Source of the DNA: Bacillota bacterium
GTDB taxonomy: Bacteria > Bacillota > Clostridia > Lachnospirales > Lachnospiraceae
DNA: 20,630 bases
Assembly (NCBI GenBank): GCA_023399455.1
Contig: JAEWPN010000021.1
Span: 1-20,630, forward strand
Direction: 5' to 3'
The position numbers and the translations under genes are program-made. How positions within the stretch are numbered: position 1 is the stretch's first letter; every line of letters begins with the position of its first letter. Shown here piece after piece: positions 6,602-8,908 of the stretch. Below the pieces are notes generated by a model. That model did no database searches, was not told the origin of the DNA, and saw only the letters and a program-made list of their open reading frames with translations.

Positions 6602-6905
6602 ATTAAAAAATTTATTGAAATGCGTTGAAAGAGACTCTTGTTATGAAAAGCGACAGGAATACGGCGTCACCGACTGAGAGCGCTGTTTGTGGGAAGTAAC
6701 AAAGGGAACACTCTGGAGCAGATTTTTCGAACTGCTGATGAAGGCACTAGGGAGATACGTTAACACGCGTTAAGTGTAAGAGTGGGCAGGACGGTTCACA
6801 CATCTTGATAGAGATGTCGGCTTGTCAATGCGGGTGGTACCGCGGGTTATTATAATTTTAATTATCCGTCCCGGAATGCAGGAAACTGTGTTCCGGGACT
6901 TCTTT
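6602..6905 (+). promoter_or_regulatory. T-box riboswitch, probable tRNA-Asn specificity
   Basis: The T-box core CGGGTGGTACCGCG (6831-6844) is unmistakable. Upstream, the stem I elements AGGAATAC (loop E-like, near 6654), GAGAGCGCTG and the distal-loop-like TTTGTGGGAA (6687-6696) appear in the normal order. The 3' strand then reads GGGAACACTCTGGAGC. By position the specifier is AAC (6707-6709, Asn); the overlapping triplet GAA (6706-6708) encodes Glu. In the antiterminator, CGGG (6831-6834) can pair with CCCG (6870-6873), competing with the terminator at 6868-6905. Uncharged tRNA would promote readthrough into aspS-gatCAB. The stem I fold was judged by motif order, not computed. Confidence 0.93.
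6868..6905 (+). terminator. T-box regulated intrinsic terminator
   Basis: GTCCCGGAATGCAG (6868-6881) pairs with 6886-6899 around a GAAA tetraloop, with two G-U pairs, followed by TTCTTT (6900-6905). The 5' strand is shared with the T-box antiterminator. Confidence 0.88.
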
Positions 6906-6920
6906 GCGCGCATAAGCAGA

Positions 6921-6980
6921 GTAAGATTGCCGGAGAACCGCTGAACTGCTTGCAGCTCAGCGGTTCTCCGGCAATCTTAC
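6921..6980. repeat. 24-bp perfect hairpin in the aspS leader
   Basis: The 24 bases at 6921-6944 (beginning GTAAGATTGCCGGAG) are the exact reverse complement of 6957-6980. The 12-base loop holds a further CTGC/GCAG match (6946-6949 with 6952-6955). The stem is too long and too perfect to be chance. It lacks a T tract, so it is not an ordinary terminator. Confidence 0.9.
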
Positions 6981-6991
6981 GAGCAACGCGA

Positions 6992-7023
6992 ACTTTAAAT
7001 TTCTCGGCAGAGAAATTTAAAGT
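6992..7023. repeat. 14-bp perfect hairpin in the aspS leader
   Basis: ACTTTAAATTTCTC (6992-7005) is the exact reverse complement of GAGAAATTTAAAGT (7010-7023), with the four-base loop GGCA. It is AT-rich, unlike the neighbouring GC-rich 24-bp hairpin, and is separated from it by an 11-base linker. Confidence 0.88.
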
Positions 7024-7026
7024 CTG

Positions 7027-7076
7027 CTTATGACTCAGCCAAAGAAATTGGCTTATGACTCAGCCAAAGAAATTGG
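7027..7076. repeat. Perfect 25-bp tandem repeat, two copies
   Basis: 7027-7051 and 7052-7076 are identical; each begins CTTATGACTCAGCC and ends AAAGAAATTGG. Within the array, AGCCAA (7038-7043) and TTGGCT (7048-7053) form a small hairpin spanning the copy junction. The first copy overlaps the right arm TCTGCTTATG of the enclosing stem, so the second copy of CTTATG offers an alternative partner for CATAAG at 6911-6916. Confidence 0.92.
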
Positions 7077-7156
7077 TCAATCCACAAATAAGCAAAGAAG
7101 TCCCGGAACGTCAAAAAAGAAAAATGAGCAAAGAACACTCATAAGGAGAGAGTATT

Positions 7157-8908
7157 ATGATGACTAAAAACATTTACAGAGACATCACAGTAAAAGAAAT
7201 CGACGAATCCTACATCGGAAAAACAGTAAAAGCGGCGGGATGGGTAGAAAATATTCGGGATCACGGAGGAGTATCCTTTGTCGATTTGAGGGATATGTAT
7301 GGAGTATTACAAGTAGTAATCCGGACTCCTGAGCTTATGAAAGAGATTACAAAGGAAGCTTCCATATCGGTGGAGGGTCTCATAGAAAAAAGGGATGAAG
7401 AAACATACAATCCCAAGATACCTACCGGAACCATAGAGCTGGAAGCTAGGTCCATTGTCATTCTGGGCAAGGTATACAAACAGCTTCCTTTTGAAATAAT
7501 GACTTCCAGGGAAACAAGAGAAGATGTCCGGCTGAAGTATCGTTATTTAGATCTTAGAAACGCCAAGGTAAAAGAGAACATTATTTTCCGATCCCAGGTC
7601 ATCTCCTTTCTGCGGGAGAAAATGACGGAAATGGGATTTCTGGAGATACAGACTCCGATTTTATGCGCTTCCTCGCCGGAAGGAGCAAGGGACTATATCG
7701 TTCCCTCCAGAAAATATAAAGGAAAGTTTTATGCGCTTCCTCAGGCTCCTCAGCAGTATAAGCAGCTTTTGATGGTGTCGGGATTCGATAAATATTTTCA
7801 GATAGCGCCCTGCTTCCGCGATGAGGATGCCAGAGCAGACCGCTCGCCCGGCGAATTTTATCAGTTGGATTTTGAAATGAGCTTCGCCGAACAAGAAGAT
7901 GTTTTTCGTGTAGGAGAAGAAATTCTGAGCGCTGCTTTTGAAAAATTTGCTCCGGAAGGTTTTGAGGTAACAAAGGCTCCTTATCCCATTATCAGCTATA
8001 AGCAGGCGATGCTTGAGTTTGGTACGGATAAACCGGATTTGCGCAATCCACTCAGAATCATGGATATGACAGAGTTCTTCCAGGAATGCACCTTTAAGCC
8101 ATTTATTGGAAAAACAGTGCGGGCCATTAAGGTACACGGAGAGATGACTAAGGGCTTCCACGAAAAGCTGCTTAGTTTCGCAGTGTCTCTCGGTATGGGT
8201 GGCCTCGGATATCTGGAGGTGGAGGAAGGCCTGACCTATAAGGGGCCTATCGACAAATTCATTCCGGAAGATAAGAAGATGCAACTGCTGGAAAAAGCCG
8301 GTCTAGCCGTGGGAGATACTATTTTTTTCATAGCAGACAAAGAGGAGAGAGCTAATTATTATGCCGGACAAATTAGAAATGAACTGGGCATTAAACTCGA
8401 TTTGTACGAAAAGGATGCGTATCGCTTCTGCTATGTGAATGATTTTCCGATGTTTGAGCGGGATCCTGAGACGAAACGGATTGGATTTACACACAATCCC
8501 TTCTCCATGCCGCAGGGCGGGTTGAAGGCGCTTGAGGAGGAGAATCCTCTGGATATATTGGCATATCAATATGATATCGTATGTAATGGCATCGAACTAT
8601 CCTCGGGAGCGGTGAGAAATCACGATATGCAGATAATGGTAAAAGCTTTCGAAATTGCAGGATATGATGAAGAAACCTTGAAAAATAAATTTGGAGCGCT
8701 CTACCAGGCATTTCAGTTCGGTGCGCCTCCCCACGCAGGAATGGCGCCGGGAATCGACCGCATGCTTATGCTGCTTCGAGGCGAGGAGAATATCAGAGAG
8801 GTGATCGCTTTCCCTATGAGCGGCTCTGCGCAGGATTTAATGTGCGGTGCACCTAATGATGTGACGGAAAAGCAGCTTCGGGAAGTGCATATTAAAGTCA
8901 GAGACTAA
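7157..8908 (+). CDS. aspS: Aspartyl-tRNA synthetase, probably non-discriminating
   Basis: Charges tRNA-Asp with aspartate and, if non-discriminating, also tRNA-Asn for later amidation by GatCAB. It has 583 residues, typical of bacterial AspRS with the inserted GAD domain. The N-terminal OB-fold anticodon domain includes RDHGGVSFVDLRD; class II motif 2 is FRDEDARADRSPGEFYQLDFE and motif 3 is GMAPGIDRMLMLL. His36 (RDHGG) occupies the site where Pseudomonas aeruginosa non-discriminating AspRS has His31 and discriminating enzymes such as E. coli have Leu. The second site known to matter there (Gly82; Lys in E. coli) is Glu here. ATG 7157 follows AAGGAGAG (7143-7150). It is the first gene of aspS-gatC-gatA-gatB, under T-box control. 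Confidence 0.95.
   Translation: MMTKNIYRDITVKEIDESYIGKTVKAAGWVENIRDHGGVSFVDLRDMYGVLQVVIRTPELMKEITKEASISVEGLIEKRDEETYNPKIPTGTIELEARSIVILGKVYKQLPFEIMTSRETREDVRLKYRYLDLRNAKVKENIIFRSQVISFLREKMTEMGFLEIQTPILCASSPEGARDYIVPSRKYKGKFYALPQAPQQYKQLLMVSGFDKYFQIAPCFRDEDARADRSPGEFYQLDFEMSFAEQEDVFRVGEEILSAAFEKFAPEGFEVTKAPYPIISYKQAMLEFGTDKPDLRNPLRIMDMTEFFQECTFKPFIGKTVRAIKVHGEMTKGFHEKLLSFAVSLGMGGLGYLEVEEGLTYKGPIDKFIPEDKKMQLLEKAGLAVGDTIFFIADKEERANYYAGQIRNELGIKLDLYEKDAYRFCYVNDFPMFERDPETKRIGFTHNPFSMPQGGLKALEEENPLDILAYQYDIVCNGIELSSGAVRNHDMQIMVKAFEIAGYDEETLKNKFGALYQAFQFGAPPHAGMAPGIDRMLMLLRGEENIREVIAFPMSGSAQDLMCGAPNDVTEKQLREVHIKVRD

Follow-up and report, generated by a model that had tools for sequence, protein, structure and literature searches.

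The core (6906-7032) of a structured RNA block that lies between the T-box terminator and the start of aspS is very probably one copy of a dispersed structured element. Our preferred reading, to which we give a probability of about 0.6, is that this core is an inserted, probably trans-mobilised, non-coding guest whose sense strand folds as a fixed three-way junction and which has little effect on aspS. The element is dispersed, has been copied within genomes and has decayed at orthologous sites; its shape is fixed and its sequence free, its P2 pairing is asymmetric in favor of the sense strand, and its copies mostly dock at particular transcription signals.

A sequence-only reading of the window (the whole stretch of 20,630 nucleotides analyzed here) had described a non-coding block of packed stems and a tandem repeat at 6890-7109, just before the ribosome site of aspS. 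Inverted- and direct-repeat searches and folding recovered all of these features in place (Table 1), except that the stem given as 10 bp, P1 in our nomenclature, is 9 bp long. The minimum free energy of the RNA 6890-7109 is -121.7 kcal/mol, compared with -53.7 kcal/mol (SD 4.4) for 200 dinucleotide shuffles, none of which was as low (0/200; z = -15.5), and none of the listed ORFs of at least 80 amino acids overlaps the block. The core consists of P1, the long P2, the junction GAGCAACGCGA, P3 and a probable pseudoknot. The arms of P2 are complementary over 29 nt at 97%, with 24 bp unbroken in the fold, and the tandem repeat is present twice in the window and three times in G001, which is the same species or nearly so. 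The downstream gene is presumably aspS, a name given from general sequence knowledge and by the sequence-only reading.

Table 1. Positions of the block, its parts and its context in the window
Feature	Position	Strand	Basis or remark
T-box leader of aspS (context, outside the element)	6616-6876	+	RF00230 match
T-box intrinsic terminator	hairpin 6868-6899, T-rich tract 6900-6905	+	Inverted repeat
Outer stem	6890-6907/7092-7109	+	18 bp, 100% complementary
Outer stem, 5' strand (3' arm of the terminator with the T-rich tract)	6890-6907	+	Inverted-repeat search
Outer stem, 3' strand, GCAAAGAAGTCCCGGAAC	7092-7109	+	Inverted-repeat search; conserved in relatives; RNA pair probability
Core, very probable copy of the dispersed element (type I, three-way junction)	6906-7032	+	Covariance models R1 and R2
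Probable pseudoknot, strand a, CGCG	6907-6910	+	Pairing count over type I copies
P1, 5' strand	6911-6919 (pairs with 7024-7032)	+	9 bp; fold
P2, long hairpin, apex GC-TT-GC	6921-6980 (arms 6921-6949/6952-6980)	+	Inverted repeat; fixed length and register among copies
Junction GAGCAACGCGA	6981-6991	+	aspS rows and type I copies
Probable pseudoknot, strand b, CGCG	6987-6990	+	Within the junction
P3 hairpin, 14 bp	6992-7023 (arms 6992-7005/7010-7023, 100%)	+	Inverted repeat, fold
P1, 3' strand	7024-7032	+	Fold
25-bp tandem repeat	7026-7050/7051-7075, 100%	+	Starts within the P1 3' strand
Putative ribosome site AAGGAGA	7143-7149	+	Sequence
aspS (aspartyl-tRNA synthetase, presumed; context)	7157-8908	+	ORF of 583 amino acids

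The T-box upstream of the block is probably real. RF00230 matches the leader over the full model length with 67.4 bits (E 2.4e-14), under the gathering score of 93, and both GGGTGGTACCGCGG at position 6832 and the terminator support membership of this leader in the class. The T-box adjoins the block on its 5' side and contributes one strand to the outer stem; the block itself falls wholly after the terminator, relatives of its core occur without T-boxes, and it is no part of the T-box. When both T-box states were folded, the terminated RNA (6833-6906) formed the terminator hairpin with a pair probability of 0.99997, and the read-through RNA (6833-7156) formed the outer stem with a probability of 0.999, against 0.006 for the terminator, a preference of 5.1 kcal/mol. 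Since the outer stem borrows the 3' arm of the terminator, it can form only once the terminator is open, and since the polymerase has by then already passed, it cannot alter termination. At most, the folding predicts an effect on the stability or translation of the read-through mRNA.

By known T-box logic, charged tRNA-Asp would end the RNA at about 6905, before the block, and uncharged tRNA-Asp would allow read-through, so that at aspS the block would be transcribed only then. Its 3' flank could pair over 18 bp with the freed terminator 3' arm and close a domain before the ribosome site. The effect on aspS is likely to be small, that of a stable 5' UTR domain which may shield or mark the read-through mRNA. 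A second regulatory layer acting only on read-through transcripts had been one of the proposals of the sequence-only reading, beside an inserted palindromic repeat, an RNA stabilizer and a separate small RNA. The restriction to read-through follows from the position of the block at aspS, but it is not general: type II copies of the element lie where transcripts begin, and a few of type I seem convergent with the next gene.

BLASTN with the 220 bases of the block across 61 genomes gave matches in four (G001, G015, G012 and G008), all at the junction between the T-box and aspS, the G001 copy being nearly identical to that of the window. The five aspS copies, window included, have in common GCGCGYATAAGCAGAGTA...TAC(G/T)AGCAACGCGAACTT...AAGTCTG, and differ in P2; 14 of 51 predicted pairs carry at least one two-sided change. 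The junction is identical in four of the five rows, with one G-to-T change in G001, and is also common to type I copies elsewhere. AGTCCCGGARC, within the 3' strand of the outer stem, is kept in all four relatives that have the block. Orthologues of aspS (84-100% identity) were found in 13 of 16 genus genomes, and those genus members with a readable leader beyond the four have the same T-box sequence with different or short tails; G002, G005 and G009 keep the T-box sequence without the block. Inheritance of the aspS copy seems to extend over at least four species (window/G001, G015, G012 and G008), and the copy persists in all four genomes.

The same leaders hold other small insertions and blocks. 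In G001 (L008/L001), the aspS leader is longer by about 80 bases, which include a small hairpin, GTGTGAAAAATGGATTTTTCACAC, between two GAGAGTA copies just before the gene; the window is without this addition, which is another small palindromic insertion in the same leader. G010, G006, G003 and G004 carry a different folded block behind the same terminators (L011, L014, L013 and L015 at aspS, L185 at trpE, L321 at tyrS), in variants of a hairpin GGGGCATCC..GGATGCCC, CGCGCG and a hairpin GAGTAGGG..CCCTACTCGAT. Its presence in G010 at both aspS and trpE makes it look like a second dispersed element with the same docking place. Separately, 14 of the 16 genus genomes encode an aspartyl-tRNA synthetase-like protein with 42-43% identity to the query, which coexists with the aspS orthologue in 11 genomes; the orthologue was not found in G014, G016 and G011.

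The dispersal of the core was followed with two covariance models, R1, built from the five aspS copies, and R2, built from 27 copies at other loci with no aspS copy among them. R1 matches the window, whose own copy was scored with this model only, at 6899-7034. R2 scores the aspS copies of G001, G012, G015 and G008 at 111.4, 103.6, 102.5 and 92.0 bits, and the P1-P2-junction-P3 fold at aspS is in this way recovered by a model made from other loci. R1 found further copies at unrelated loci within the genus and, at E 0.01, matches in 16 of 397 family genomes. In the wide R2 searches eight candidates were scored per genome. At E 1e-3 the order gave matches in 70 of 392 genomes, and at E 1e-4 the class gave them in 15 of 391, six of the latter outside the order; these order and class counts are not clean, since weak R2 matches of about 30-40 bits may be other hairpins. 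An exact-pattern scan of GTDB contigs returned at least 120 stretches. Among the 80 listed, 75 are not obviously chance and are titled Lachnospiraceae, genera of Lachnospiraceae or plain 'bacterium'; the other five, from Acidobacteria, Chloroflexi and actinobacteria, have odd spans and look like chance. The copies are located at unrelated loci, mainly in Lachnospiraceae, and tandem arrays of them occur.

The family was revealed only by the covariance models. A same-sequence DNA repeat elsewhere in the genome was sought with the 220-base BLASTN query and rejected, the aspS site being the only one found in G001. In Rfam 15, no match anywhere in the window, the block included, reached its gathering score; a search of 801 bases with E up to 10 returned only sub-threshold generic hairpins (mir-, snoRNA- and traJ-like), and there was no Rfam match reaching gathering score at the copies themselves in 20 further loci or in 57 loci. 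Larger relatives with an inserted gene were likewise rejected: nine of 85 distinct 5' ends from the fetched loci are without the strict junction motif, none has a gene inside, and inspection of 90 bases each by eye puts these nine down to variants of the junction, to remnants, to an antisense read or to chance. Two further observations concern neighboring families. More than 30 R2 matches of about 160 nt, mostly at 24-40 bits, are among those listed for G248 and are probably another repeat family. The elements at L089, L108/L173 and L111/L172 have the same layout behind T-runs with different cores (e.g., GTAACGATGAG..CATCGTTAC), which suggests a superfamily of docked three-way junctions.

What unites the copies is shape. 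Compensatory changes, which the sequence-only reading had recommended looking for, proved abundant: in the 27 copies at other loci, 92.5% of 1256 cells are paired and 44 of 49 pairs show two-sided changes (P1, 7 of 9; P3, 10 of 12). The covariation score of these copies is 0.713, compared with 0.195 after shuffling and at most 0.105 after sliding, in an alignment that was fitted to the R1 structure and so favors it. The span is 79 nt in 64 of 83 pattern matches and 78-80 nt in 75 of the 83, the five chance matches included. P2 measures 62 nt in 87 of 122 non-redundant copies, and these 87 (53 type I and 34 type II) follow one pairing register, with i+j=62 in the outer and i+j=61 in the apical part, corresponding to about 24 bp with a one-base offset below the apical stem. 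Most P2 pairs occur among them in all four Watson-Crick forms. The strands of the probable pseudoknot are fully paired in 94 of 104 type I copies, against 87.7 (SD 1.1) in shuffles, none of 2000 of which reached 94, the best of four offsets being taken in both cases; its two-sided change (CGTG/CACG) occurs in six copies from the same genus and may therefore have arisen once.

The P2 pairs that are not Watson-Crick comprise 145 G-U, 41 A-C and 319 other mismatches, and G-U exceeds A-C in type I (81 to 17) as well as in type II (64 to 24), under a copy filter that treats the two alike. The binomial p of 8e-15 is too small, since the copies share ancestry. Equal numbers would be expected if only the duplex mattered, and selection therefore seems, from these counts, to act on the sense single strand; a partial alternative is that the excess in part reflects transcription-linked C-to-T mutation.

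Evidence of copying comes from G248. Four of its copies, at unrelated loci, form six pairs with 87-92% identity, one further pair reaches 95%, and the flanks match at 33-53%. Copies that are 87-95% alike within one genome and have unrelated flanks indicate that the element is, or was, mobile DNA. One pair in this genome (L144/L146, 81%) also has an alike upstream flank (87%), so not every pair of copies represents a lone insertion. At the trpE leaders, full copies are found in G001 and G008, only P1 and part of P3 in G012, and none recognizable in G015; at the tyrS leaders, G001 and G008 again have full copies, and G015 has only the 5' end plus another small palindrome. The copies are therefore dispensable at those leaders. 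A clean empty site was not found when trpE and tyrS were compared within the genus, where the relatives are diverged and the losses look imprecise. The additional palindrome of the G015 tyrS leader (L310; 27 nt, GTTACTG..CAGTAAC) lies between two CTTTGCG copies, behind the terminator and before the truncated element end, and G012 has, besides an intact tyrS, a second, broken tyrS-like copy with many stops (G012:C1:4280-5503, L324).

The inserted palindromic repeat that had been among the first suggestions for the block is borne out in so far as the core is dispersed at many unrelated loci and is decayed or unrecognizable at the orthologous sites of some relatives. It had also been stated that dispersed near-identical copies would reduce the block to a repeat insertion. 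Dispersed the copies are, but most have only the shape and a short core in common, and their covariation is very strong. Dispersal combined with such covariation gives the element the look of an insertion whose sense-strand fold is under selection as well.

No target-site duplication was seen at type I copies (0/70 at a score of at least 10; 0.6 expected), and type II copies gave 2/39 (1.2 expected). A Y1 transposase as the mobilizer, which a REP/RAYT or IS200/IS605 derivative would need in its host, gained no support. Of 13 genomes with copies, six (G248, G372, G100, G062, G139 and G424; 93-100% complete) gave no match to PF01797 (Y1_Tnp), and the domain was present in six of 13 others that had been chosen as copy-poor. 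Carriage by phage was rejected on zero matches of viral contigs to the exact pattern, one strict pattern, and a guide or antisense role of the P2 arms on zero viral-contig matches to the exact arms of two copies (window aspS and G001 trpE).

Most copies dock at a terminator or a -10 box. Of 76 type I copies, 65 directly follow a hairpin with an energy of -8 kcal/mol or below, whereas 4 of 43 in type II do so and the frequency at 528 T-rich control sites is 21%; some of the 11 type I copies that fail this test do so because their 5' end is TATAAT-like. At 51 type I loci, 13 cis-regulatory RNAs exceed the Rfam threshold and ten of them end immediately upstream of the copy, namely T-boxes (L197, L212, L221, L241 and L263), SAM riboswitches (L195, L211, L228 and L268) and a ZTP riboswitch (L237), some of these leader loci, such as the SAM ones, being orthologous in related species and not independent. 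In the first set of 20 loci, all five T-boxes are adjacent to copies. Further copies follow leaders of genes that, from their translated starts, we take to be aspS, trpE, tyrS, ileS, pheS, proS and valS.

Type II copies begin after an extended -10 box, TRTG[GA]TATAAT, of which the search pattern fixed a part and left the TG and the -35 region free. The -35 signal is weak and its spacing right, with T at -29 in 64% and at -28 in 54%. By crude ORF calls, the first ORF of at least 80 amino acids downstream of a type II copy is co-oriented in 24 of 24 cases, and the gene following 51 type I copies is co-oriented in 37, opposed in 10 and not called in 4. Of the opposed genes, that at L211 is a miscall, a metK-like start following the copy, and those at L228 and L268 are probably miscalls too; L217, L223 and L257 look convergent with the next gene, and L240 and L245 are antisense between two atp genes. 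Some copies, at L061, L240 and L245 (atp operon) and at L051 (S10 operon), are antisense between operon genes and do not lie behind terminators. The 5' ends of both types can be aligned by eye to TWTWWTG-Y-S-CG, pointing to a single target rule. Some type II copies (L289, L290, L063, L270 and L066) are followed by a second ATGGTATAAT-like box, which may be a duplication or a promoter of the element.

Docking at these signals suggests that insertion takes place where RNA polymerase holds the DNA open, either paused at a terminator or in an open promoter, and some protein presumably recognizes the folded strand. On this reading, the folded sense strand is what selection maintains, probably to the benefit of the element's own spread, and one copy came to rest behind the aspS T-box terminator. 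Put in its most specific form, as a shape-recognized mobile element whose insertion is coupled to the polymerase bubble at U-tracts and -10 boxes, with the sense strand (RNA or displaced non-template DNA) as substrate and the aspS copy as one such insertion now resting in a read-through leader, the proposal is tentative and on balance doubtful.

A cis-acting leader RNA that hosts keep at gated transcripts, as a 5' stabilizer, RNase III entry site or sensor, and whose dispersal reflects recruitment of a useful module, is the alternative that we take most seriously, possible if improbable. It would account for the co-oriented genes after every one of the 24 type II copies in the crude calls, for the enrichment of type I copies behind T-box, SAM and ZTP terminators, and for strong covariation together with a pseudoknot; a helix as long as P2 also suffices as an RNase III substrate. 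The apparently convergent and antisense type I copies fit such a role poorly, as do the close relatives that have lost or truncated their trpE and tyrS copies, and type II copies share no visible gene function. The inserted guest that we prefer also faces the possibility, a very slim one, that the repeats arose as inverted-repeat DNA by replication template switching and that the pairing reflects correction of one arm by the other, single-strand selection playing no part. That process typically leaves near-perfect arms, tails and arrays in tandem, and inverted copies such as that of the terminator arm at aspS. Arm correction, however, predicts neither the excess of G-U over A-C nor a fixed length and offset of P2, and it leaves unexplained the covariation of P1, where P2 and P3 lie between the two strands.

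Hardly more credible is a T-box accessory, in which the block traps the terminator 3' arm and keeps the read-through RNA antiterminated as part of aspS regulation. The outer stem does win over the terminator in the full-length RNA, and its AGTCCCGGARC half is kept in G001, G015, G012 and G008; the terminator arm itself hardly varies and so shows no informative covariation. The trap would exist only after the polymerase has passed the terminator, however, and T-boxes of the genus are kept without the block. Moreover, by eye the trpE and tyrS copies have no such inverted arm copy, and inverted matches to the upstream flank were found in 0 of 70 type I copies (0.3 expected) within the 70 nt behind them, a reach too short for the full aspS stem.

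Among known systems, group IIC introns also insert just behind intrinsic terminators. Their ribozyme runs to hundreds of bases and is usually accompanied by a reverse transcriptase, whereas the core described here has 127 bases. The nearest precedent that we found is the BOX element of Streptococcus pneumoniae, which, in the portions of its description available to us, is a small dispersed intergenic repeat with modular tandem parts that folds when transcribed and is judged parasitic, one copy lying within a trp leader between two T boxes (Croucher 2011; PMC3049150). BOX elements are defined there by the sequence modules boxA, B and C, terminal inverted repeats and target duplications (PMC3049150). 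By this partial description, the present family is set apart by a nearly free sequence, a fixed shape, copies that abut terminators or -10 boxes and type I copies that show no target duplication. MITEs are characterized, in the excerpt consulted, as short, non-coding, strongly folded, multicopy and mostly intergenic (PMC10969869), and the present element resembles them as a dispersed multicopy non-coding element. It differs from MITEs in that no target duplication was seen at type I copies, no partner transposase was found, and the copies, with GC mostly at 0.35-0.6, show no marked AT-richness. The arms of P1 form near-terminal inverted repeats whose sequence covaries and is not fixed. The family is best filed with repeats of the BOX/MITE kind.

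A survey of non-coding RNA in 50 genomes takes multicopy covarying motifs (mobile/repeat sequence candidates, MRSC) as selfish and, in its authors' example, allows that the fold may matter as DNA; it counts 250 candidates, one of which may match the present family, as far as the consulted text of that survey goes (PMC11109978). The MRSC described in that text, MRSC-65-2, consists of one long stem carrying a UYCCGG repeat (PMC11109978), unlike the three-way junction here. The accessible part of another source (PMC8632094) describes nothing like the element, and no paper on the dispersed family was among the matches listed from the open-access literature. Relative to Rfam 15 and the open literature searched, this element of gut clostridia is apparently undescribed.

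In summary, bacterial small interspersed repeats are as a rule recognized from their sequence, and the present family is united by shape and was found through covariation; the models R1 and R2 can be used to annotate its copies in other genomes. The choice of terminators, attenuators and -10 boxes as docking places points to a testable link between transcription and transposition. In the 5' leaders of gut Lachnospiraceae, an apparent additional layer of regulation may be no more than a guest that the host tolerates.
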